Shown piece by piece: positions 26,175-33,519 of a stretch of 64,000 nucleotides of DNA. The translations under genes were made by a program, and so were the position numbers. The first letter of the stretch is position 1; every line of letters starts with the position of its first letter. The notes under the pieces are model-generated. The model had not been told where the DNA came from. It did not search any database and was given only the letters and a program-made list of their open reading frames with translations. The stretch covers positions 124,001 through 188,000 of the forward strand of contig NZ_FNNS01000001.1 of assembly GCF_900106795.1 (NCBI RefSeq). Direction: 5' to 3'. Origin of the DNA: Aequorivita viscosa (GTDB lineage Bacteria > Bacteroidota > Bacteroidia > Flavobacteriales > Flavobacteriaceae).

Positions 26175-26207
26175 GGTCGTCTAAACCAAGTTTGGACGAC
26201 CTTTTTT
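26175..26207 (+). terminator. Intrinsic terminator of the 54-residue gene
   Basis: GGTCGTCTAAAC (26175-26186) and GTTTGGACGACC (26190-26201) pair over 12 bases (one G-U), with a three-base CAA loop and a T6 tail. It starts 34 bases after the stop. Confidence 0.95.
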
Positions 26208-26400
26208 GTTTTTAAATTTTTTACGTTTAGATTGAGTTTTGCATAAAATACGATTGTTTTGCTTATGTGGAAATTCTTTGTAGACACTTTTAAATAAGAA
26301 TTAACATTACCAAAAAGGTTATGGGATTTCAGTTATTTCTTAAAATTATGTAGCTTTACACATAGGCTAGCTTTAAATACCAATTTCTACAGGCATAAAA

Positions 26401-26436
26401 AAATAGCCAAGTTTTTCTAAAAAATAGCCAACTTTT
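26401..26436. repeat. Two 15-base direct repeats AAATAGCCAA(G/C)TTTT
   Basis: AAATAGCCAAGTTTT at 26401-26415 and AAATAGCCAACTTTT at 26422-26436 differ at one position and are spaced by 21 bases. They lie just before the palindrome at 26440-26481. Confidence 0.75.
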
Positions 26437-26439
26437 ACA

Positions 26440-26481
26440 GAAAACAAGTACAACTTTTTGAAAAAAGTTGTACTTGTTTTC
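26440..26481. repeat. Near-perfect 42-base palindrome (20-bp arms)
   Basis: The arms GAAAACAAGTACAACTTTTT (26440-26459) and its exact complement (26462-26481) are separated by only GA. As RNA it would form a stem of at least 17 bp with a small loop, with A runs before and T runs inside. It could be a terminator for an unseen short transcript, a cruciform, or a duplicated protein-binding site. Confidence 0.85.
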
Positions 26482-27042
26482 TATACACTTCCCTGTTAGT
26501 TTCAGTAATTTACTTAGAATTTTTATTAATTTAACCGCGGTATTTGATAATAGTATTGAATAACACTGCAACCCTATACCAAATATCATCTACGGCGGCA
26601 GACTTAGGCCTTATTTTGGATGCTGTTTTCCCACCTATTATTTAATTTTAACAAGGTGTACACCAAAGGTGTGCGGGAAATATGAGTAAAGAAATATGCT
26701 TAAATGCGCATAACCTGAATATAGACTGGATAATACTTTAATCTAATAGAATGATTTACAATAGATTTTGCATTATTCCTTTTCTTGCCGAAATCACCTA
26801 TCTAAAGTATTATAAAAGTTGTGGTTTTTAATCTGAAAAATGCTTGAAGTAGAACTAATATTTGTGTTAATGCACCTCGTTATTCATTAAGTATTCTAAA
26901 GCAAAGAGCTTATTTTTATTAAAAGCAGATAGTATATCGCTCAAGTCATTCAAAAATATTGCATCCTTAATTATTTCTTTTGAATTGCGCTATTTTGATT
27001 GAAATATACTATCTAGCCTTTAAAAACTTGCACGTTATTTGG

Positions 27043-27162
27043 CTAATTCAAGCAAGTAAGTTCTAGTATTAATCGAATTTGAAGTTCTTCGATTTCATTA
27101 GAATAACATCTTATTATAACATTCCATCTTTTTACATTACGTATTCGCCATGATTTTTTCAT
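27043..27162 (-). CDS. Possible 39-residue small protein downstream of box A
   Basis: Reading leftward, ATG at 27162-27160 opens a 39-codon frame ending with TAG at 27043-27045. The start is 53 bases from the ATACCC-N6-GGGTAT box at 27215-27232. The upstream ACAAAAACAATTCATT looks like an ordinary A-rich Bacteroidota leader. The peptide is basic at its N-terminus (KKSWRIRNVKRW) and then alternates charged and aliphatic residues (EIEELQIRLILELT). It has no signal peptide and no recognised family. In A/T-rich DNA a frame this short can arise by chance, so this is a candidate only. Confidence 0.25.
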   Translation of the reverse strand: MKKSWRIRNVKRWNVIIRCYSNEIEELQIRLILELTCLN

Positions 27163-27214
27163 AATGAATTGTTTTTGTATTAAGCTAATATAGAAAGGAA
27201 TAGGTGTTATTGAA

Positions 27215-27232
27215 ATACCCAGTAACGGGTAT
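27215..27232. promoter_or_regulatory. Box A: ATACCC-AGTAAC-GGGTAT
   Basis: A perfect 6+6 inverted repeat with a 6-base spacer, identical to box B and closely related to boxes C and D. The outer TACCC...GGGTA pattern gives the 7-2-7 spacing of NarL-type sites (TACYYMT heptamers). It is followed rightward by ATTTTGAA. A response regulator with a NarL/LuxR helix-turn-helix is encoded 0.7 kb away. Confidence 0.65.
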
Positions 27233-27290
27233 ATTTTGAAATAGTGGGCAAATTATAATCTATTTATTTATTGAAAATAATTATGTAGAA

Positions 27291-27325
27291 AAAAAGGACA
27301 ACCGTGTAATAACGGTGCCCTTTTT
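27291..27325. terminator. Hairpin A, terminator-like
   Basis: AAAAAGGACAACCGT (27291-27305) and ACGGTGCCCTTTTT (27312-27325) form a stem with one bulge. In a leftward transcript the internal pair becomes G-U and the stem ends in a T7 run, so leftward termination is favoured. A similar hairpin is at 27789-27822, at about the same distance from its box. Confidence 0.55.
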
Positions 27326-27718
27326 GTTGAACAATAACCCCTCAGAATTGCTCAAACCAATGCTGTATTTAGTAAGGAGCAAACGTCCTTGACTATCTAA
27401 ATATTTTTGATTAATAGATACTTACATTTAGAAACTTATAGCACATTGTAACTCTCGCCCTTATATTGCTACTCCCCCAAGCACGCAAAAAATCTAACGG
27501 TATATTGCATTTAACAATGTGCTACTTTGCTTCCAAAAACTTGCTTAACACTTAATTCAACCAATTATTGCAAGTATATTTTTAGTTTAAATGAACTTTA
27601 AATCAATCTATAATATTTGTTCTATCTCCTGATCTTTCAGTCTATAATTTGAACAATGATTAAGTAGATTAACTTGTTTAATACGTTGCTAAGATAAGGT
27701 CAATTTTGGGGTTAAAAA

Positions 27719-27736
27719 ATACCCAGTAACGGGTAT
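27719..27736. promoter_or_regulatory. Box B: ATACCC-AGTAAC-GGGTAT
   Basis: Identical over all 18 bases to box A and, like it, followed by ATTTTGAA, so the identity covers 26 bases. It lies about 0.2 kb beyond the response regulator stop. Confidence 0.65.
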
Positions 27737-27788
27737 ATTTTGAATTCATGATAGGTAATTCCTGGAATCATTATTTAAAACTAAAAGG

Positions 27789-27822
27789 AAAAAGGGTTAC
27801 CATTTTTACGTGGCACTCTTTT
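27789..27822. terminator. Hairpin B, terminator-like, downstream of the response regulator operon
   Basis: AAAAAGGGTTACCA (27789-27802) and TGGCACTCTTTT (27811-27822) pair imperfectly. As in hairpin A the pairing is better in the leftward RNA, which also ends in a T5 run. It lies 108 bases after the response regulator stop, so it is a plausible terminator for that operon. Confidence 0.5.
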
Positions 27823-27882
27823 CAATGAACATAACCCCTTAACTGTTCATTCCAAATGTACGGTAGCATACAACTAAAAAAA

Positions 27883-27900
27883 ATACCCAATAACGGGTAT
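27883..27900. promoter_or_regulatory. Box C: ATACCC-AATAAC-GGGTAT
   Basis: The same exact palindromic ends with a one-base change in the spacer. It lies 30 bases past the response regulator stop codon, between that gene and hairpin B. Confidence 0.6.
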
Positions 27901-27929
27901 TTTTACTATGTGTAGGGTAACAAAATAGG

Positions 27930-28556
27930 TCAAAAATCATATTTTCTGTCTAAAGCATAACGCAATAACTCACCTTTGCCCGATAATCCGAGTTTATGAA
28001 TCATATTTTTACGGTGTTTTTCTACTGTTGACACGGCTGTAAAGCGTAAACTCGCAATTTCACTACTGGATTTTCCTTGTCCAATATATCGCAGTATCTC
28101 CCGTTCACTTTTTGATAAAACAGGCTTTTTAGACGAGGTGTCTGAATCGTCATTTAAAAATGATAGATCTATGGCACTGTCAAAAAAAGTATTTCCTTCA
28201 GACACTGCATTTATTGCGTTTAATACCTCTTCTAGTGGAGAGTTCTTAAGTAAATACCCTGATGCGCCTGCCGCAATCATTTGTGTTATTGCTTCTTGCT
28301 GGTTAAACATTGTAAAAGCTATGACTTTTGTTTCTGGGAATTCTTTCTTAATTAATTTTGTAACTGCAATTCCGTCTATTTTAGGCATTTTAATATCGGT
28401 TAAAACTACTTCGGGGCGTTTGTTTCTTACAACTTCCAAAAGCGCTTCACCATCATTGGCCATTCCCACTATGGTGATACCTTCTTTATATTTTAATAAA
28501 AGATTAATTCCATCCATTAACGATTGATGGTCCTCGGCTATGGCTACAGTAATCAT
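27930..28556 (-). CDS. NarL/LuxR-family response regulator
   Basis: A 208-residue DNA-binding response regulator. The receiver domain (1-120) has E8-D9, the phospho-acceptor D54 in VVLTDIKMPKIDG and the switch lysine in LLKNSPLEE. The C-terminal LuxR-type helix-turn-helix (about 145-205) reads LSKSEREILRYIGQGKSSSEIA and then AVSTVEKHRKNMIHKLGL, with the usual recognition-helix pattern. Its ATG overlaps the stop of the histidine kinase by four bases, so the pair is coupled and almost certainly cognate. Four NarL-type palindromes lie around the operon, suggesting autoregulation. The signal and target genes are unknown. Confidence 0.93.
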   Translation of the reverse strand: MITVAIAEDHQSLMDGINLLLKYKEGITIVGMANDGEALLEVVRNKRPEVVLTDIKMPKIDGIAVTKLIKKEFPETKVIAFTMFNQQEAITQMIAAGASGYLLKNSPLEEVLNAINAVSEGNTFFDSAIDLSFLNDDSDTSSKKPVLSKSEREILRYIGQGKSSSEIASLRFTAVSTVEKHRKNMIHKLGLSGKGELLRYALDRKYDF

Positions 28557-30325
28557 ATTGGTATATCTATTAAAATGGTTGTCCCTTTACCTAGGGTGGA
28601 ATCTACTTCCATGCTCCCTTCTAGGTGTTCTATTCTTCTTTCAATATTGGCAAGGCCCATTCCGTCTTTCGCGTGCATTTTTTTTATATCGAATCCCTGC
28701 CCGTTGTCCTCGACAATTATGCTTAATAAGTCTGAATGTTGGGTTATGGAAATACTTGCTTCGGAAGCGTTTGAGTGTTTAATAATATTGGTAACGAGTT
28801 CTTGTATTACCCTGAAAATCATTATTTCTATAGAGTTTTCAAGACGTTCGTCTAAGCCAAAATCTTGTACTTCGATTGTTAAATTGCTAGAGACTGAAGC
28901 GTTTTTAGCCAGTTTTTCTATTGCTGGTAATAAACTGTTTTTTGCCAATAAGCCGCTGTTTTTTAAGTGAGCCATTTCTCTCACTTCATTATAAGCGTCT
29001 TCAAGAAGTGAACTTGTGTTTTCAAACAATTCATCTTCGTTTATAATTTTTCCTTTGTTATTTTTTAAATGATTAAATTGAAGTTTAGCAGCTGCTAAGG
29101 TAGCACCTACCGAATCGTGGAGATCGCTTGCCATTCGTTCTCGTTCTTTTTCTTGTCCCGAAATCATAGCGTCAATGGTTGCAAGCTCTTGCTCTTTCAA
29201 TATTTTTTCTGTTTTTTGAATTTCTATTTCACGTTGTTGCTCTGCGATATGTTGTTTACGTCTAGAATTTTTAAACAGCAAAAAACCAATTAAGGCAACT
29301 CCTATAAGCCCACCGCCTAAACCAATAGCTATGTTTCTATTTTGGGTTCTTTTTGATTCAATTTCTAAATTGTCTGCACGCAGCTTTTCATTGTCATATT
29401 CCTCCTTTATCGTCGCCATATTTACGTTTTGGAACGTTTCATTAATGCTGTCCTTTATTCGGGAAAGCTTCTGCGAGTATATAAAAGCAGTGTCAAATTG
29501 ACCAATTTCGCTATACACATCCATCATATTTTCGTAAAAAATCTTTTTAGTTTTTAAGTTGAACTTACGTAATGGAATCGAATCGGCTTTGTTATAATAA
29601 GTAATGGCTGCATTATAATTGCCTAGCTTTTTATAAGCCTGTGCTTGGTTGTTATAATTGTATGATAAATATTCCTGGTTTTCTTTTTGAATGTAAAAAG
29701 GAGCCGTTTTTTTGAAAAAATATAGCGCGCTGTCGTATTGTTTTAAAGTGGTAGAATAAACAACGCCTTTATTGAATAGAAAATTAGTTGCGCGCAGGGT
29801 GTCATTGAGTTTCTTTGCAATTTTTATTGCCCTATCAAAATTTTGGATTGCTTTTTCGGCATTATCAGCATCGAGATACAATACAGCTAATTTTGAATAC
29901 GCTATAGCTTCATCAATGGGTTTACCGCAAGTTTTTGATGCACTTATGTATTCTTTTAAAAAAGGTTCTTCGTCTACCATATTGTGGTTTTGATGACTTA
30001 GAACTTCTACAATTAAAAGATCAATCTTTGCTAAATTGCAAGTGTCATTAAGTTCAATATAAATTGTCCTGGACTCGATAAAATCTGCAAAGGCTATGTC
30101 GTGTTTGCTTTTTGAAAAATTAGCTGATCCTTTGAGAAGATAAAATTGAGCTTTGTCTTGTTGATTTAGCTTTGATTCATTAATTGTATTTAATAATAGT
30201 AATACACTATCTGCTTCAAATTCTTGAAGTAGTTTTTCCGCATTTGAAATAGCTTTATTCTGTGAAAGGCACTGAAATGAAAATAATATTGCGGCCAGAA
30301 ACAAATGTGGATAGATTACTTTCAC
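28553..30325 (-). CDS. TPR-containing sensor histidine kinase (HisKA_3 type)
   Basis: A 590-residue membrane sensor kinase. A signal peptide (1-22) is followed by a periplasmic region of TPR-like helix pairs (about 25-300; DNAEKAIQNFDRAIKIAKKL is a clear unit), a single membrane helix (about 332-351), a coiled coil (355-390) and the kinase core. The phospho-acceptor is H403 in ASDLHDSVGATLAAAKLQ (HisKA_3). The ATPase domain has NIIKHSNA (N box), VEDNGQGFD (G1) and GMGLANIERRIEHLEGS (G2). It overlaps the upstream 155-residue gene and the downstream regulator gene by four bases each. TPR sensors of this kind are common in Bacteroidota; the ligand or partner protein is unknown. Confidence 0.93.
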   Translation of the reverse strand: MKVIYPHLFLAAILFSFQCLSQNKAISNAEKLLQEFEADSVLLLLNTINESKLNQQDKAQFYLLKGSANFSKSKHDIAFADFIESRTIYIELNDTCNLAKIDLLIVEVLSHQNHNMVDEEPFLKEYISASKTCGKPIDEAIAYSKLAVLYLDADNAEKAIQNFDRAIKIAKKLNDTLRATNFLFNKGVVYSTTLKQYDSALYFFKKTAPFYIQKENQEYLSYNYNNQAQAYKKLGNYNAAITYYNKADSIPLRKFNLKTKKIFYENMMDVYSEIGQFDTAFIYSQKLSRIKDSINETFQNVNMATIKEEYDNEKLRADNLEIESKRTQNRNIAIGLGGGLIGVALIGFLLFKNSRRKQHIAEQQREIEIQKTEKILKEQELATIDAMISGQEKERERMASDLHDSVGATLAAAKLQFNHLKNNKGKIINEDELFENTSSLLEDAYNEVREMAHLKNSGLLAKNSLLPAIEKLAKNASVSSNLTIEVQDFGLDERLENSIEIMIFRVIQELVTNIIKHSNASEASISITQHSDLLSIIVEDNGQGFDIKKMHAKDGMGLANIERRIEHLEGSMEVDSTLGKGTTILIDIPI

Positions 30326-30789
30326 GGTAAGGTTACAATTGATCCTATTAAAATGGAGCCATCTTTATCTTTTTGTTTATCGTGATTCTCTCCTAATTCA
30401 AATACCTCACAAGAATTAACAGTTTCTGAAACTTCGTAAATTCGCAAGACCAATTCAATTTGTTTTACTGTTTTTAAATCTACTCCATTTGGAATTGCCA
30501 AGCTTTCTGAGGTTCTTAAAACAGTTCCGGAGTTGTTGTTGATGTGTAATTCAATACGATTTTGGTTAGAACACCATTCTGCCTTTATGATGGTGTGAGT
30601 TACTTTTACAGTACTTAAATTATCGAGTAAGAAATCAATTTTATTAATTTTTGAAGTGTCTACAGCATCCCAATGGAATAATCCTCTAATTAAAATATCG
30701 TGGGTATATTCTTGCGCATCAAAAATTATTTGATAGCTGTTAACTCCAATTGCGATGTAATGTTTTTCAATAACGGGTGTAAATGGCAT
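30322..30789 (-). CDS. Unknown 155-residue protein, first gene of the two-component operon
   Basis: A 155-residue protein without signal peptide or membrane helix. It appears beta-rich (KHYIAIGVNSYQIIFDAQEY, KIDFLLDNLSTVKVTHTII, KQIELVLRIYEV), perhaps a single sandwich or barrel domain. It contains two cysteines, near 72 and 125. I do not recognise the family. Its stop overlaps the start of the histidine kinase by four bases, so all three genes form one translationally coupled operon. That argues for a role with the kinase, as a sensor accessory or an output protein. Box D lies 65 bases before the ATG. Confidence 0.75.
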   Translation of the reverse strand: MPFTPVIEKHYIAIGVNSYQIIFDAQEYTHDILIRGLFHWDAVDTSKINKIDFLLDNLSTVKVTHTIIKAEWCSNQNRIELHINNNSGTVLRTSESLAIPNGVDLKTVKQIELVLRIYEVSETVNSCEVFELGENHDKQKDKDGSILIGSIVTLP

Positions 30790-30853
30790 AGGTCTCGTTT
30801 TAGTGATTTAACTGATTTTCTTACAAGAATACGAACTAAAGAGATGAGAAAAC

Positions 30854-30871
30854 ATACCCATTAGGGGGTAT
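30854..30871. promoter_or_regulatory. Box D: ATACCC-ATTAGG-GGGTAT at the operon promoter
   Basis: A fourth copy of the palindrome with a different spacer but the same ends and spacing. TACCCAT is an exact NarL-type heptamer (TACYYMT). In the leftward direction GGGTATGTTTTC overlaps TATGTTTT, a 7/8 match to the TAnnTTTG -7 element, about 65 bases upstream of the three-gene operon. A regulator bound here would touch the promoter directly. Confidence 0.65.
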
Positions 30872-30953
30872 TTTGCGCAAAAAATCTATGTGAATTTATA
30901 TAAAATAAATAAGAAAATAAGCGTTCAGTTAAAAGTATGCTGAAAATATAATC

Positions 30954-31002
30954 AATAAAAAAATCTGCTCAGTTTTTGAATAATCAAAAACTGAGCAGAT
31001 TT
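30954..31002 (-). terminator. Strong terminator of the TonB-type receptor gene
   Basis: AAATCTGCTCAGTTTTTGA (30961-30979) and its exact complement (30984-31002) make a perfect 19-bp stem with a four-base loop. In the leftward transcript it is followed by a T-rich tail (TTTTATTG). It lies 22 bases after the stop of the receptor gene. Confidence 0.95.
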
Positions 31003-31023
31003 AAAGTAAAAAGAATTTATTAT

Positions 31024-33519
31024 TTAGCCTTCGTAACCGCCGTTATCATCCATTCCGCCGCCACGTTGTCCGCGTTGACGTTGCTTAGATTGATTAAATC
31101 GGTACGAGAAGGTTAGCGTTACTGTTCGCGCTCTCCATTGGAATTCACTTTCGCTAGTAAAAGTATTTGTGGTGGTAATGCTGTTTCTTTTACGCGTGTT
31201 AAATAAATCGCTCGCGTTTAATGATATAGTTGCATTGTCGTTAATAATATCCTTACTCATTGCCATATCTACCGATAATATTGGGTCAGATTCGGTTTGA
31301 GCATTATTGCTAGGGCCGCGATAGAAAGCATTGGTTTGCCATTCAATCTTAAGCGGAAGTTTTACTTTTGAACTAAACCTTCCAAAGTAGCTTGTATTTT
31401 CGGCACCATAATCTATATCATTATAAAAGCCTTCTGTTTTAAATTGGAAATAGTTGAAACTACCATTTAAGTTTAACCATTTAAAAGGATTGTAAAGAAG
31501 ACCAACTTCAAAGCCATATCGCTGATTGGTAGATAGGTTTATGGGAAGAGAGCGAATTATACTAACCCCGTTTTGCGTTTGCTCACCAGTTTCTTCTTGA
31601 ATACGTTCAAAAGAATCTGTTTCGTGCTGGTAATAGATAGATGCTGTTAATGTAAGTTTTTTCCAACGTTTGAGATATCCTAAATCAAAAGCACTTGCAT
31701 AAGCAGGATCTAGGCCTGGGTTACCTTGAAAAATATTCGTCTCGCTTGAACGCGAAGGGAAGGGGTTTAAGTACCATCGTCTTGGTCGGTTAATTCTTCG
31801 GTTGTATCCAAGTGTTATATTTTCACTTTCTTTGATTTCGTACGTTAGGTTTACTGTCGGAAACAGGCCTGTGTAGTTTTTGTCAAAGTTTAGGTTTAGA
31901 GAAGTCGATGCGGTAACGTCTTCAGCATCCAACTTTCCCTTCATAACTGTATTTTCTAATCGTAGACCCAATAGGAATGAAAATTTTCCAAATTTATTTC
32001 CATACTGAGAATAGATGGCATTTACATTTTGTTCATAATTAAACTTGTTTGAAAGGCTATCATTACGCACATAGTTTCCAGAGTTGCCTACTTCGTTTTG
32101 AAGCATATAATCTGTTGTTGTTTCGTTAAAATCGCCTCTATATCCCGCTTCAAACTGCGCGTTTTCTCCAATAGGAAGTACATAATCGACTTGAGCCAGA
32201 TACTCTCTACCAGTTTCGTCTGTGTTTATTAACTCCTTAGGTAATAGCTCATTGGTCGGAATTTTCTTAAAATCCCTAATTAAAGCCTGCTCGTTTTCCT
32301 TGCTATCTTCAAACTGAAGGTCGGCTGTTAGTTTATGGCCTTTGTCGTTAAATCTATTTTCATAGTTTAGCGCAAACTGAATTGTGGTATCGTCTTCATC
32401 TTCATTCTCAATACGTAGACTTTGATCTGAAAGTAGGTTGTTTTGATAGCGAAATGTATTGTTTTCTGTTACATCTTCGCTTTTACTTGCACGATAAAAA
32501 ACGCTACCGGTTATAGAAGAACGATCTGTAAGAAAATACTCCATACCTAAATTTGTGTTGAATCCTTTACGTTCTCTGTCGTAAGTTCTATCTTCATAAA
32601 TATTGTCGAATGGAGGGTCTATGGTAATAGTTTGACCTGAATCATCCACAAAAGACCTAGAAAAATATCGGTTGTCGAATTTGGCGTGACCAGGCGCTTT
32701 TCTATAATAAATTCCTGTTGTGTTAAAAAGATTGAACTTATCGGTTCTAATATTTATATTTCCTGAAGTACTACTGTTTAAAGGAACTCCGATGCTGGTG
32801 CTAATAGAGCCATTAAGGCCTAAAGTTTTTTCCTTTTTTAGGATGATGTTTAATATTCCTGCAGTTCCTTCAGCGTCATATCGAGCCGAAGGTGAAGTGA
32901 TTACCTCTACACGCTCAATAGCTTCGGCAGGCAGTTGTCTAAGGGCATCGGTAGAACCAAACCCAGCAATAGCAGAAGGCTTACCGTTAATTAATATTTT
33001 CACGTTCTCATTTCCACGAAGGGCAATTGCACCATCAACATCAACAGTAACAGATGGAACATTGCTCAAAGCGTCGCTAACTGTAGCGCCACCCGAGGTA
33101 AGATCTTTTCCTATGTTGTAAATTTTCTTGTCGAGTCTAATTTGTACCTCTGTGGTTTCAGCACGAATTACTACTTCATCTAAACTTGCAGAATCCATTG
33201 CTAACGAAATTGTGGGCAGTGTAGTGTTTGAAGTTAAATTCTGATCAGGTAAGGTTTTCGTTTTATATGAAATAAATTCATATTTAACTGTGTATACTCC
33301 TGCTGGTACCTTAATATTATATAATCCTTCGGTGTCTGTTATTCCTCCTGTTACAATTTTACCACTTGCGTCTGTAAATGAAACTGTGGCGTATTCTAAT
33401 GGATGATTGGTGCCATCTTCTAAGATTTTACCTTTAATTGTAACTTGTTTTTTTTCTGACTGTTGGGCAAGTACTCCAGCAGTGGATAAAAGAATAAGAA
33501 GTGAAAATAGTAGTCTCAT
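31024..33519 (-). CDS. TonB-dependent receptor / outer membrane beta-barrel family protein
   Basis: An 831-residue outer membrane protein. The signal peptide (1-18, ending AGVLAQ) is followed by a carboxypeptidase-regulatory-like domain (about 25-110), a plug domain (about 120-225; VSDALSNVPSVTVDVDGAIALRGNEN is typical) and a C-terminal barrel of the flavobacterial OMP_b-brl_3 type. The last strand RTVTLTFSYRF is followed by an unusual tail of about 22 residues rich in Arg, Gln, Gly and Asp (QRQRGQRGGGMDD). No SusD-type partner is present, so the ligand may be a peptide, metal chelate or small molecule. It has its own terminator and stands alone. Confidence 0.9.
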   Translation of the reverse strand: MRLLFSLLILLSTAGVLAQQSEKKQVTIKGKILEDGTNHPLEYATVSFTDASGKIVTGGITDTEGLYNIKVPAGVYTVKYEFISYKTKTLPDQNLTSNTTLPTISLAMDSASLDEVVIRAETTEVQIRLDKKIYNIGKDLTSGGATVSDALSNVPSVTVDVDGAIALRGNENVKILINGKPSAIAGFGSTDALRQLPAEAIERVEVITSPSARYDAEGTAGILNIILKKEKTLGLNGSISTSIGVPLNSSTSGNINIRTDKFNLFNTTGIYYRKAPGHAKFDNRYFSRSFVDDSGQTITIDPPFDNIYEDRTYDRERKGFNTNLGMEYFLTDRSSITGSVFYRASKSEDVTENNTFRYQNNLLSDQSLRIENEDEDDTTIQFALNYENRFNDKGHKLTADLQFEDSKENEQALIRDFKKIPTNELLPKELINTDETGREYLAQVDYVLPIGENAQFEAGYRGDFNETTTDYMLQNEVGNSGNYVRNDSLSNKFNYEQNVNAIYSQYGNKFGKFSFLLGLRLENTVMKGKLDAEDVTASTSLNLNFDKNYTGLFPTVNLTYEIKESENITLGYNRRINRPRRWYLNPFPSRSSETNIFQGNPGLDPAYASAFDLGYLKRWKKLTLTASIYYQHETDSFERIQEETGEQTQNGVSIIRSLPINLSTNQRYGFEVGLLYNPFKWLNLNGSFNYFQFKTEGFYNDIDYGAENTSYFGRFSSKVKLPLKIEWQTNAFYRGPSNNAQTESDPILSVDMAMSKDIINDNATISLNASDLFNTRKRNSITTTNTFTSESEFQWRARTVTLTFSYRFNQSKQRQRGQRGGGMDDNGGYEG

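Follow-up and report, generated by a model that had tools for sequence, protein, structure and literature searches.

We analysed a window of 64,000 nucleotides from Aequorivita viscosa (Bacteroidota, Flavobacteriaceae; contig NZ_FNNS01000001.1, positions 124,001 to 188,000), in which a two-component operon lies among four copies of the 18-bp palindrome ATACCC-N6-GGGTAT, here called boxes A to D (Table 1; coordinates are those of the window). The operon encodes X155, a histidine kinase and a response regulator. Pfam matches to Response_reg (2.8e-27) and GerE (5.5e-12) place the regulator in the NarL/FixJ family, and its profile matches VraR, DesR and NarL over the full length; D54 and E8/D9, the phosphoacceptor and acidic pocket, are invariant in five orthologues, and the helix-turn-helix is nearly invariant among orthologues. 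In the kinase, Pfam recognises only TPR-type repeats (with a SNAP match over them), HisKA_3 and HATPase_c, and the scan found neither the NarX/Q-type sensor domains nor the HAMP domain of the NarXL and NarQP systems. X155 is modelled as a beta-sandwich with a flexible tail (mean predicted local distance difference test score 80), and a fold search with this model returned no Protein Data Bank match at E <= 0.001.

Table 1 Operon genes, predicted operators and promoter elements, and downstream candidates in the window.
Feature	Position	Strand	Description
Possible 39-amino-acid open reading frame	27043..27162	-	MKKSWRIRNVKRWN...; just downstream of promoter A; weak candidate
-7 element of box A	27185..27192	-	TATATTAG, 5/6, 22 bp downstream
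Box A, predicted operator	27215..27232	-	ATACCCGTTACTGGGTAT on minus strand
Second small-RNA-like body	27289..27357	-	Hairpin GAGCAA...GAGGGG...TTGTTC and strong terminator hairpin
-7 element of box B	27689..27696	-	TATCTTAG, 5/6, 22 bp downstream
Box B, predicted operator	27719..27736	-	Identical to box A
Candidate small RNA of box C	27787..27848	-	Hairpin GAACA...AGGGG...TGTTC and imperfect terminator
-7 element of box C	27853..27860	-	TACATTTG, 6/6, 22 bp downstream
Box C, predicted operator	27883..27900	-	30 bp beyond regulator stop codon; position kept in relatives
Response regulator, NarL/FixJ family, 208 amino acids	27930..28556	-	Response_reg and GerE; proposed reader of the boxes
Histidine kinase, 590 amino acids	28553..30325	-	TPR repeats, HisKA_3 and HATPase_c (Pfam)
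X155, first operon gene	30322..30789	-	Predicted beta-sandwich and flexible tail with DKDGSILIG (structure model); no Pfam hit
-7 element of box D	30824..30831	-	TATTCTTG, 5/6, 22 bp downstream; predicted start near 30819
Box D, predicted operator of the X155-kinase-regulator operon	30854..30871	-	ATACCCCCTAATGGGTAT on minus strand

The boxes are specific to this locus. A scan of the window returns four exact copies, as an earlier note on this DNA (the original prediction) had claimed, against none expected from 100 dinucleotide shuffles, and allowing up to two mismatches adds a single, unrelated site. The complete genome (3,535,532 bases) likewise holds four boxes, all at the sensor-regulator operon, with no match to the reversed pattern, so the box is not common throughout the genome; a regulator search finds about 38 candidate relatives there, yet boxes stand at this operon alone. 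Each box reads TACCCnn-nn-nnGGGTA, that is, two inverted TACYYMT heptamers separated by a 2-bp spacer in the 7-2-7 arrangement (defined also in PMC9314961). The half-site TACCCAT of box D fits the heptamer fully and the other half-sites that were read fit at 6 of 7 positions, and both the NarL-type geometry and the perfect heptamer of box D, proposed earlier, thus hold. The same inverted TACCCnn heptamers with a 2-bp spacer, serving a regulator of the same family, are found in the E. coli NarL sites of yeaR and napF and in the engineered 7-2-7 site narG -89 (TACCCCTAAAGGGGTA; PMC4549865).

All four boxes are read on the minus strand, where a Bacteroidota -7 element, TAnnTTTG, matching at 6/6 or 5/6 positions, begins exactly 22 bp beyond each box. 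The original prediction had box D overlapping a -7 element, which proved wrong: the operon runs on the minus strand and its -7 element lies downstream of the box at the common distance. A plus-strand reading was rejected since it offers no -7 element at the conserved distance, and plus-strand terminator-like hairpins gave way to the minus-strand reading, the one consistent with the relatives. Because TAnnTTTG occupies -12 to -5 in mapped Flavobacterium psychrophilum promoters (PMC9723704), the 22-bp spacing would put the box at about -52 to -35, with its centre at -43.5. A site centred near -41 to -44 at a fixed distance from the promoter element is the arrangement of class II promoters, and the boxes have it, with the centre calculated from the -7 position mapped in F. 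psychrophilum. E. coli NarL also activates from single sites centred near -43.5, at -38 to -47 in yeaR and -40 to -49 in napF (PMC4549865).

The same promoter architecture recurs in relatives, where nearly all boxes of the related loci have a -7 element 22 bp away on one strand. In 80 Flavobacteriaceae-type loci fetched by regulator homology alone, with no selection for the box, we defined a site as a box with at most one mismatch plus a -7 element matching at 5/6 or better, and compared spacings of 8 to 44 bp. The 22-bp spacing accounts for 160 sites, against 0-8 at any other, and for 56 perfect -7 elements, against at most one elsewhere; 150 sites lie on the regulator's strand and 10 on the opposite one, and the mirrored-sequence control gave none. 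Of the 71 loci testable for a box ahead of the operon, 48 have one, and a box closely follows the regulator gene in 48 of 75. The consensus, AAATACCC(T)(n)TA(n)(T)GGGTAT(T), combines conserved half-sites with six inner bases that vary except for the central TA (T in 71%, A in 81%). These features bear on the idea that the palindromes, instead of being operators, act as RNA hairpins or terminators or belong to a small mobile repeat. An 18-bp palindrome could indeed form a hairpin, and boxes A and B share an identical stretch of 28 bp, beyond which similarity is at most weak; the spacing to the promoter element is, however, fixed in dozens of unrelated surroundings, the half-sites are kept while the inner bases are not, the boxes lie upstream of the predicted transcription starts, and three copies inside a transposase-like gene of genome G005 lack a -7 element and were rejected as chance. 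We consider a hairpin or repeat origin extremely improbable.

Genes downstream of boxes in the relatives include the two-component operon itself and a gene for a 127-amino-acid LuxR protein (GerE), along with secreted lipoproteins and PEGA-like and outer-membrane-like proteins, the latter groups being judged by eye, with no Pfam hit in the two representatives scanned. In genome G009 a distant box (L026 6321), well away from the regulator operon, stands before a gene whose product is of the WCWAAC papain-like peptidase type and which a stop splits into two open reading frames. On several contigs of genome G250 a related form, ATACCTACAATTAGGTAT, occurs at ten sites, again 22 bp from TAnnTTTG; this is a variant box whose regulon may be larger.

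Altogether, our results support a model whereby the NarL-type regulator, whose gene lies between boxes C and D, would use the four boxes as its 7-2-7 operators and act by class II activation, and we assign this reading a probability of about 0.82. A dimer of the phosphorylated regulator would bind at the box, beside the promoter contact of the housekeeping sigma factor, and would activate transcription from the -7 element 22 bp downstream. The four predicted promoters would be co-directed on the minus strand, with box D mediating positive autoregulation of X155, kinase and regulator, box C driving a small RNA of about 62 nucleotides, and boxes B and A giving short transcripts of unassigned content. 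The original prediction that the regulator binds the boxes stands in so far as they are tied to it by their restriction to its operon in this genome, by their recurrence with its orthologues in promoter position and by the 7-2-7 match; control of its own operon through box D is supported by the promoter geometry. The boxes might also be autorepression operators at which the regulator binds as a repressor: NarL can repress and not only activate, for example at frdA (PMC4549865), and two-component operons can be negatively autoregulated. A repressor site, however, needs no fixed distance, and strict 22-bp spacing with a centre at -43.5 marks contact with RNA polymerase, whereas the repressing NarL site of frdA lies at the start site and not at -43. 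Repression is in our judgement unlikely.

Box and regulator also tend to occur together. Within Aequorivita, an orthologue of the regulator is present in five of 28 genomes, and all five carry a box (at most one mismatch) at or near its gene. A survey of 397 genomes of the family, with the strict box-22-TAnnTTTG pattern and the regulator called at E <= 1e-50, found the pattern in 65, the regulator in 87 and both in 37, with none for the reversed control. The box goes with the regulator (37/87 against 28/310 genomes; Fisher odds 7.5, p 8e-12, values that are indicative only, as genome relatedness is not modelled), and the co-occurrence that the original prediction had proposed to check is seen in both genus and family.

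Several observations weigh against the operator model. The -7 elements of boxes A, B and D each have one mismatch, and at the thresholds applied about one third of testable loci lack a recognised box in one position. The box is kept in 28 of the 310 genomes that have no close relative of the regulator, a real exception and a persistence that the original prediction itself had counted as adverse. Finally, two Aequorivita genomes, G004 and G023, have the box without an intact close orthologue; in G023 (L031 7340-7690) the regulator gene looks broken, the C-terminal part alone remaining, in two frames. Beside this broken-looking gene, three boxes and a small RNA candidate are still in place. Three of twenty regions examined in regulator-less genomes keep the box before gene families regulated elsewhere: in two Aequorivita it precedes a lipoprotein gene encoding SIIPSS...GR(P/T)NNYLGCIEI, and in genome G299 it precedes the 127-amino-acid LuxR gene. 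Since the same gene families follow the box there, a second or replaced regulator may read it in those genomes.

Such persistence could also mean that another LuxR-type protein is the real reader of the box, for instance the one-domain LuxR protein whose gene often comes directly after that of the regulator; this gene follows a box in about 16 loci and is still box-linked in G299. We find this very unlikely. Boxes are present at the window locus and at most Aquimarina loci without an adjoining 127-amino-acid gene (the window genome was searched in the fetched region only), the two-component regulator is the common factor, and the box immediately preceding its start codon makes the 127-amino-acid gene itself look like a target.

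Under the model of activation by the two-component regulator, box C would start a transcript of about 62 nucleotides with a 5' hairpin and a terminator, likely a small RNA. Searching 1.77 Mb of fetched sequence with a descriptor of this layout gave five distinct hits: the window contributes two, and G024, G023 and locus L037 (from a metagenome-assembled genome outside the genus set) one apiece. Four of the five lie directly at a box promoter, and reversed sequence yielded none. By blastn, the box C unit aligns with L037 from box to terminator (136 nucleotides, 69% identity, E 9e-6). Across three sequences the two hairpins persist through two compensatory pair changes, a modest statistical basis, and the G-rich loop is kept as well. 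MAFFT alignments with the divergent copies were poor, and a three-sequence alignment was used, so that the covariance model rests on few sequences; in it the second body of the window scores 83 bits (this copy was used in building the model), the box C copy 32 bits and L037 18.5 bits. The second body is the best kept, but no box stands at the usual distance from it, and it could represent the 3' end of the box B transcript. Strong matches within the genus are limited to G000, G023 and G024 among the 28 genomes, and elsewhere among the 397 family genomes three matches fall below 1e-3, all of them weak and none convincing. On this comparison the candidate is a lineage-specific part of the system and not a family-wide one.

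The rarity of the candidate (3 of 28 genus genomes and one divergent metagenomic copy), the imperfect terminator of the box C copy and the lack of a box at the right distance from the better body would also suit promoter-plus-terminator relics or untranslated scraps without function. The compensatory changes, the retained loop and the alignment of the whole promoter-RNA unit with a genome outside the genus set speak against relics, which we regard as possible, if somewhat doubtful. Of the small units that had been proposed for the gene-free stretch, the one at box C is thus upheld as a small RNA candidate conserved elsewhere, and those at boxes A and B stay hypothetical; the 39-amino-acid frame below promoter A clusters alone, with no homologue found among the box targets. 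If the RNA is made and active, the arrangement would resemble that of GacA/UvrY (BarA-UvrY) with RsmY/Z or CsrB/C, in that a NarL/FixJ-family regulator probably drives a small RNA with a G-rich loop. It differs from them in that the box sequence is another one, the RNA adjoins the regulator gene, and no CsrA was found in this genome by PF02599, which does match control genomes such as E. coli; a Csr-type, CsrA-sequestering role is therefore unlikely, and we rejected the RNA as a CsrA sponge. A search of Rfam with 26200-31100 gave only weak, sub-threshold matches, none meaningful.

Two other structures were noted near the operon. A long symmetrical, terminator-like hairpin (30961-31002, AATCTGCTCAGTTTTTGA...TCAAAAACTGAGCAGATT) lies between an outer-membrane protein gene and the operon, and at 26436-26485 a near-perfect inverted repeat (24-nucleotide arms, 96%, 2-nucleotide loop), possibly a bidirectional terminator or a small repeat element, adjoins a 21-nucleotide tandem duplication (26398-26439).

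In relatives, the gene before the kinase is nearly always present and highly variable, with a class-specific C-terminus. A DKDGSILIG-like tail occurs in fourteen proteins including X155, the rest being 15-41% identical to X155, and many tail-bearing proteins (genes before the kinase, L034-L111) adjoin a serine-protease-like gene with an invariant H and GDSG. Other loci have a caspase, a C39/C70 papain-like or a subtilase gene in the position of the trypsin-like protease, and one related locus has a TIR gene on the opposite strand. X155 thus appears by sequence to belong to a fast-evolving family with conserved last residues (KDGSIIIG type), usually encoded beside a trypsin-like protease, and the two may form a modular system in which protease and tail interact. 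The exchange of unrelated proteases in one operon position beside a small partner gene is reminiscent of prokaryotic conflict systems in which trypsin, caspase or subtilase modules replace one another (PMC7159879). Here the module is instead coupled to a TPR-kinase and a NarL-type regulator, and no histidine kinases are reported among the vWA-associated effectors listed in that work. The protease gene that would mark such a conflict system is absent from the window operon, though present in many relatives, and a trypsin-class profile search of the genome, run without a positive control, found nothing.

We tentatively speculate that these loci make up an undescribed, Flavobacteriaceae-wide modular signalling system, comprising a protease of one of several unrelated folds, a fast-evolving partner whose conserved tail is class-specific (KDGSIIIG where the protease is trypsin-like), a TPR-kinase and a NarL-type regulator. 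Together they would sense proteolysis or an intruder and, through box-22-TAnnTTTG promoters, induce envelope lipoproteins and a second LuxR factor, joined in some lineages by a small RNA; the window would then hold its protease-less form. Nothing matching the motif or the system was found in the open-access literature set. The likeness to E. coli NarL likewise has bounds: the phyla differ, the TAnnTTTG promoter belongs to another sigma factor, TA is preferred at the centre of the site, TPR repeats and no NarX-like sensor domains were found in the kinase, and the targets are genes other than those of nitrate respiration.

Little is known of the operators that Bacteroidota response regulators use, and at this locus the sequence alone gives an operator, the exact spacing between it and the promoter element, the protein that probably reads it and a regulon of several genes. 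The 48-bp pattern of box, spacer and -7 element provides a handle for finding targets in any flavobacterial genome. Finally, if the association of proteases with tailed partners is true, it would link two-component signalling to protease modules that are otherwise a topic of work on prokaryotic conflict systems, and the protease-less, RNA-bearing version in the window would be an informative variant.

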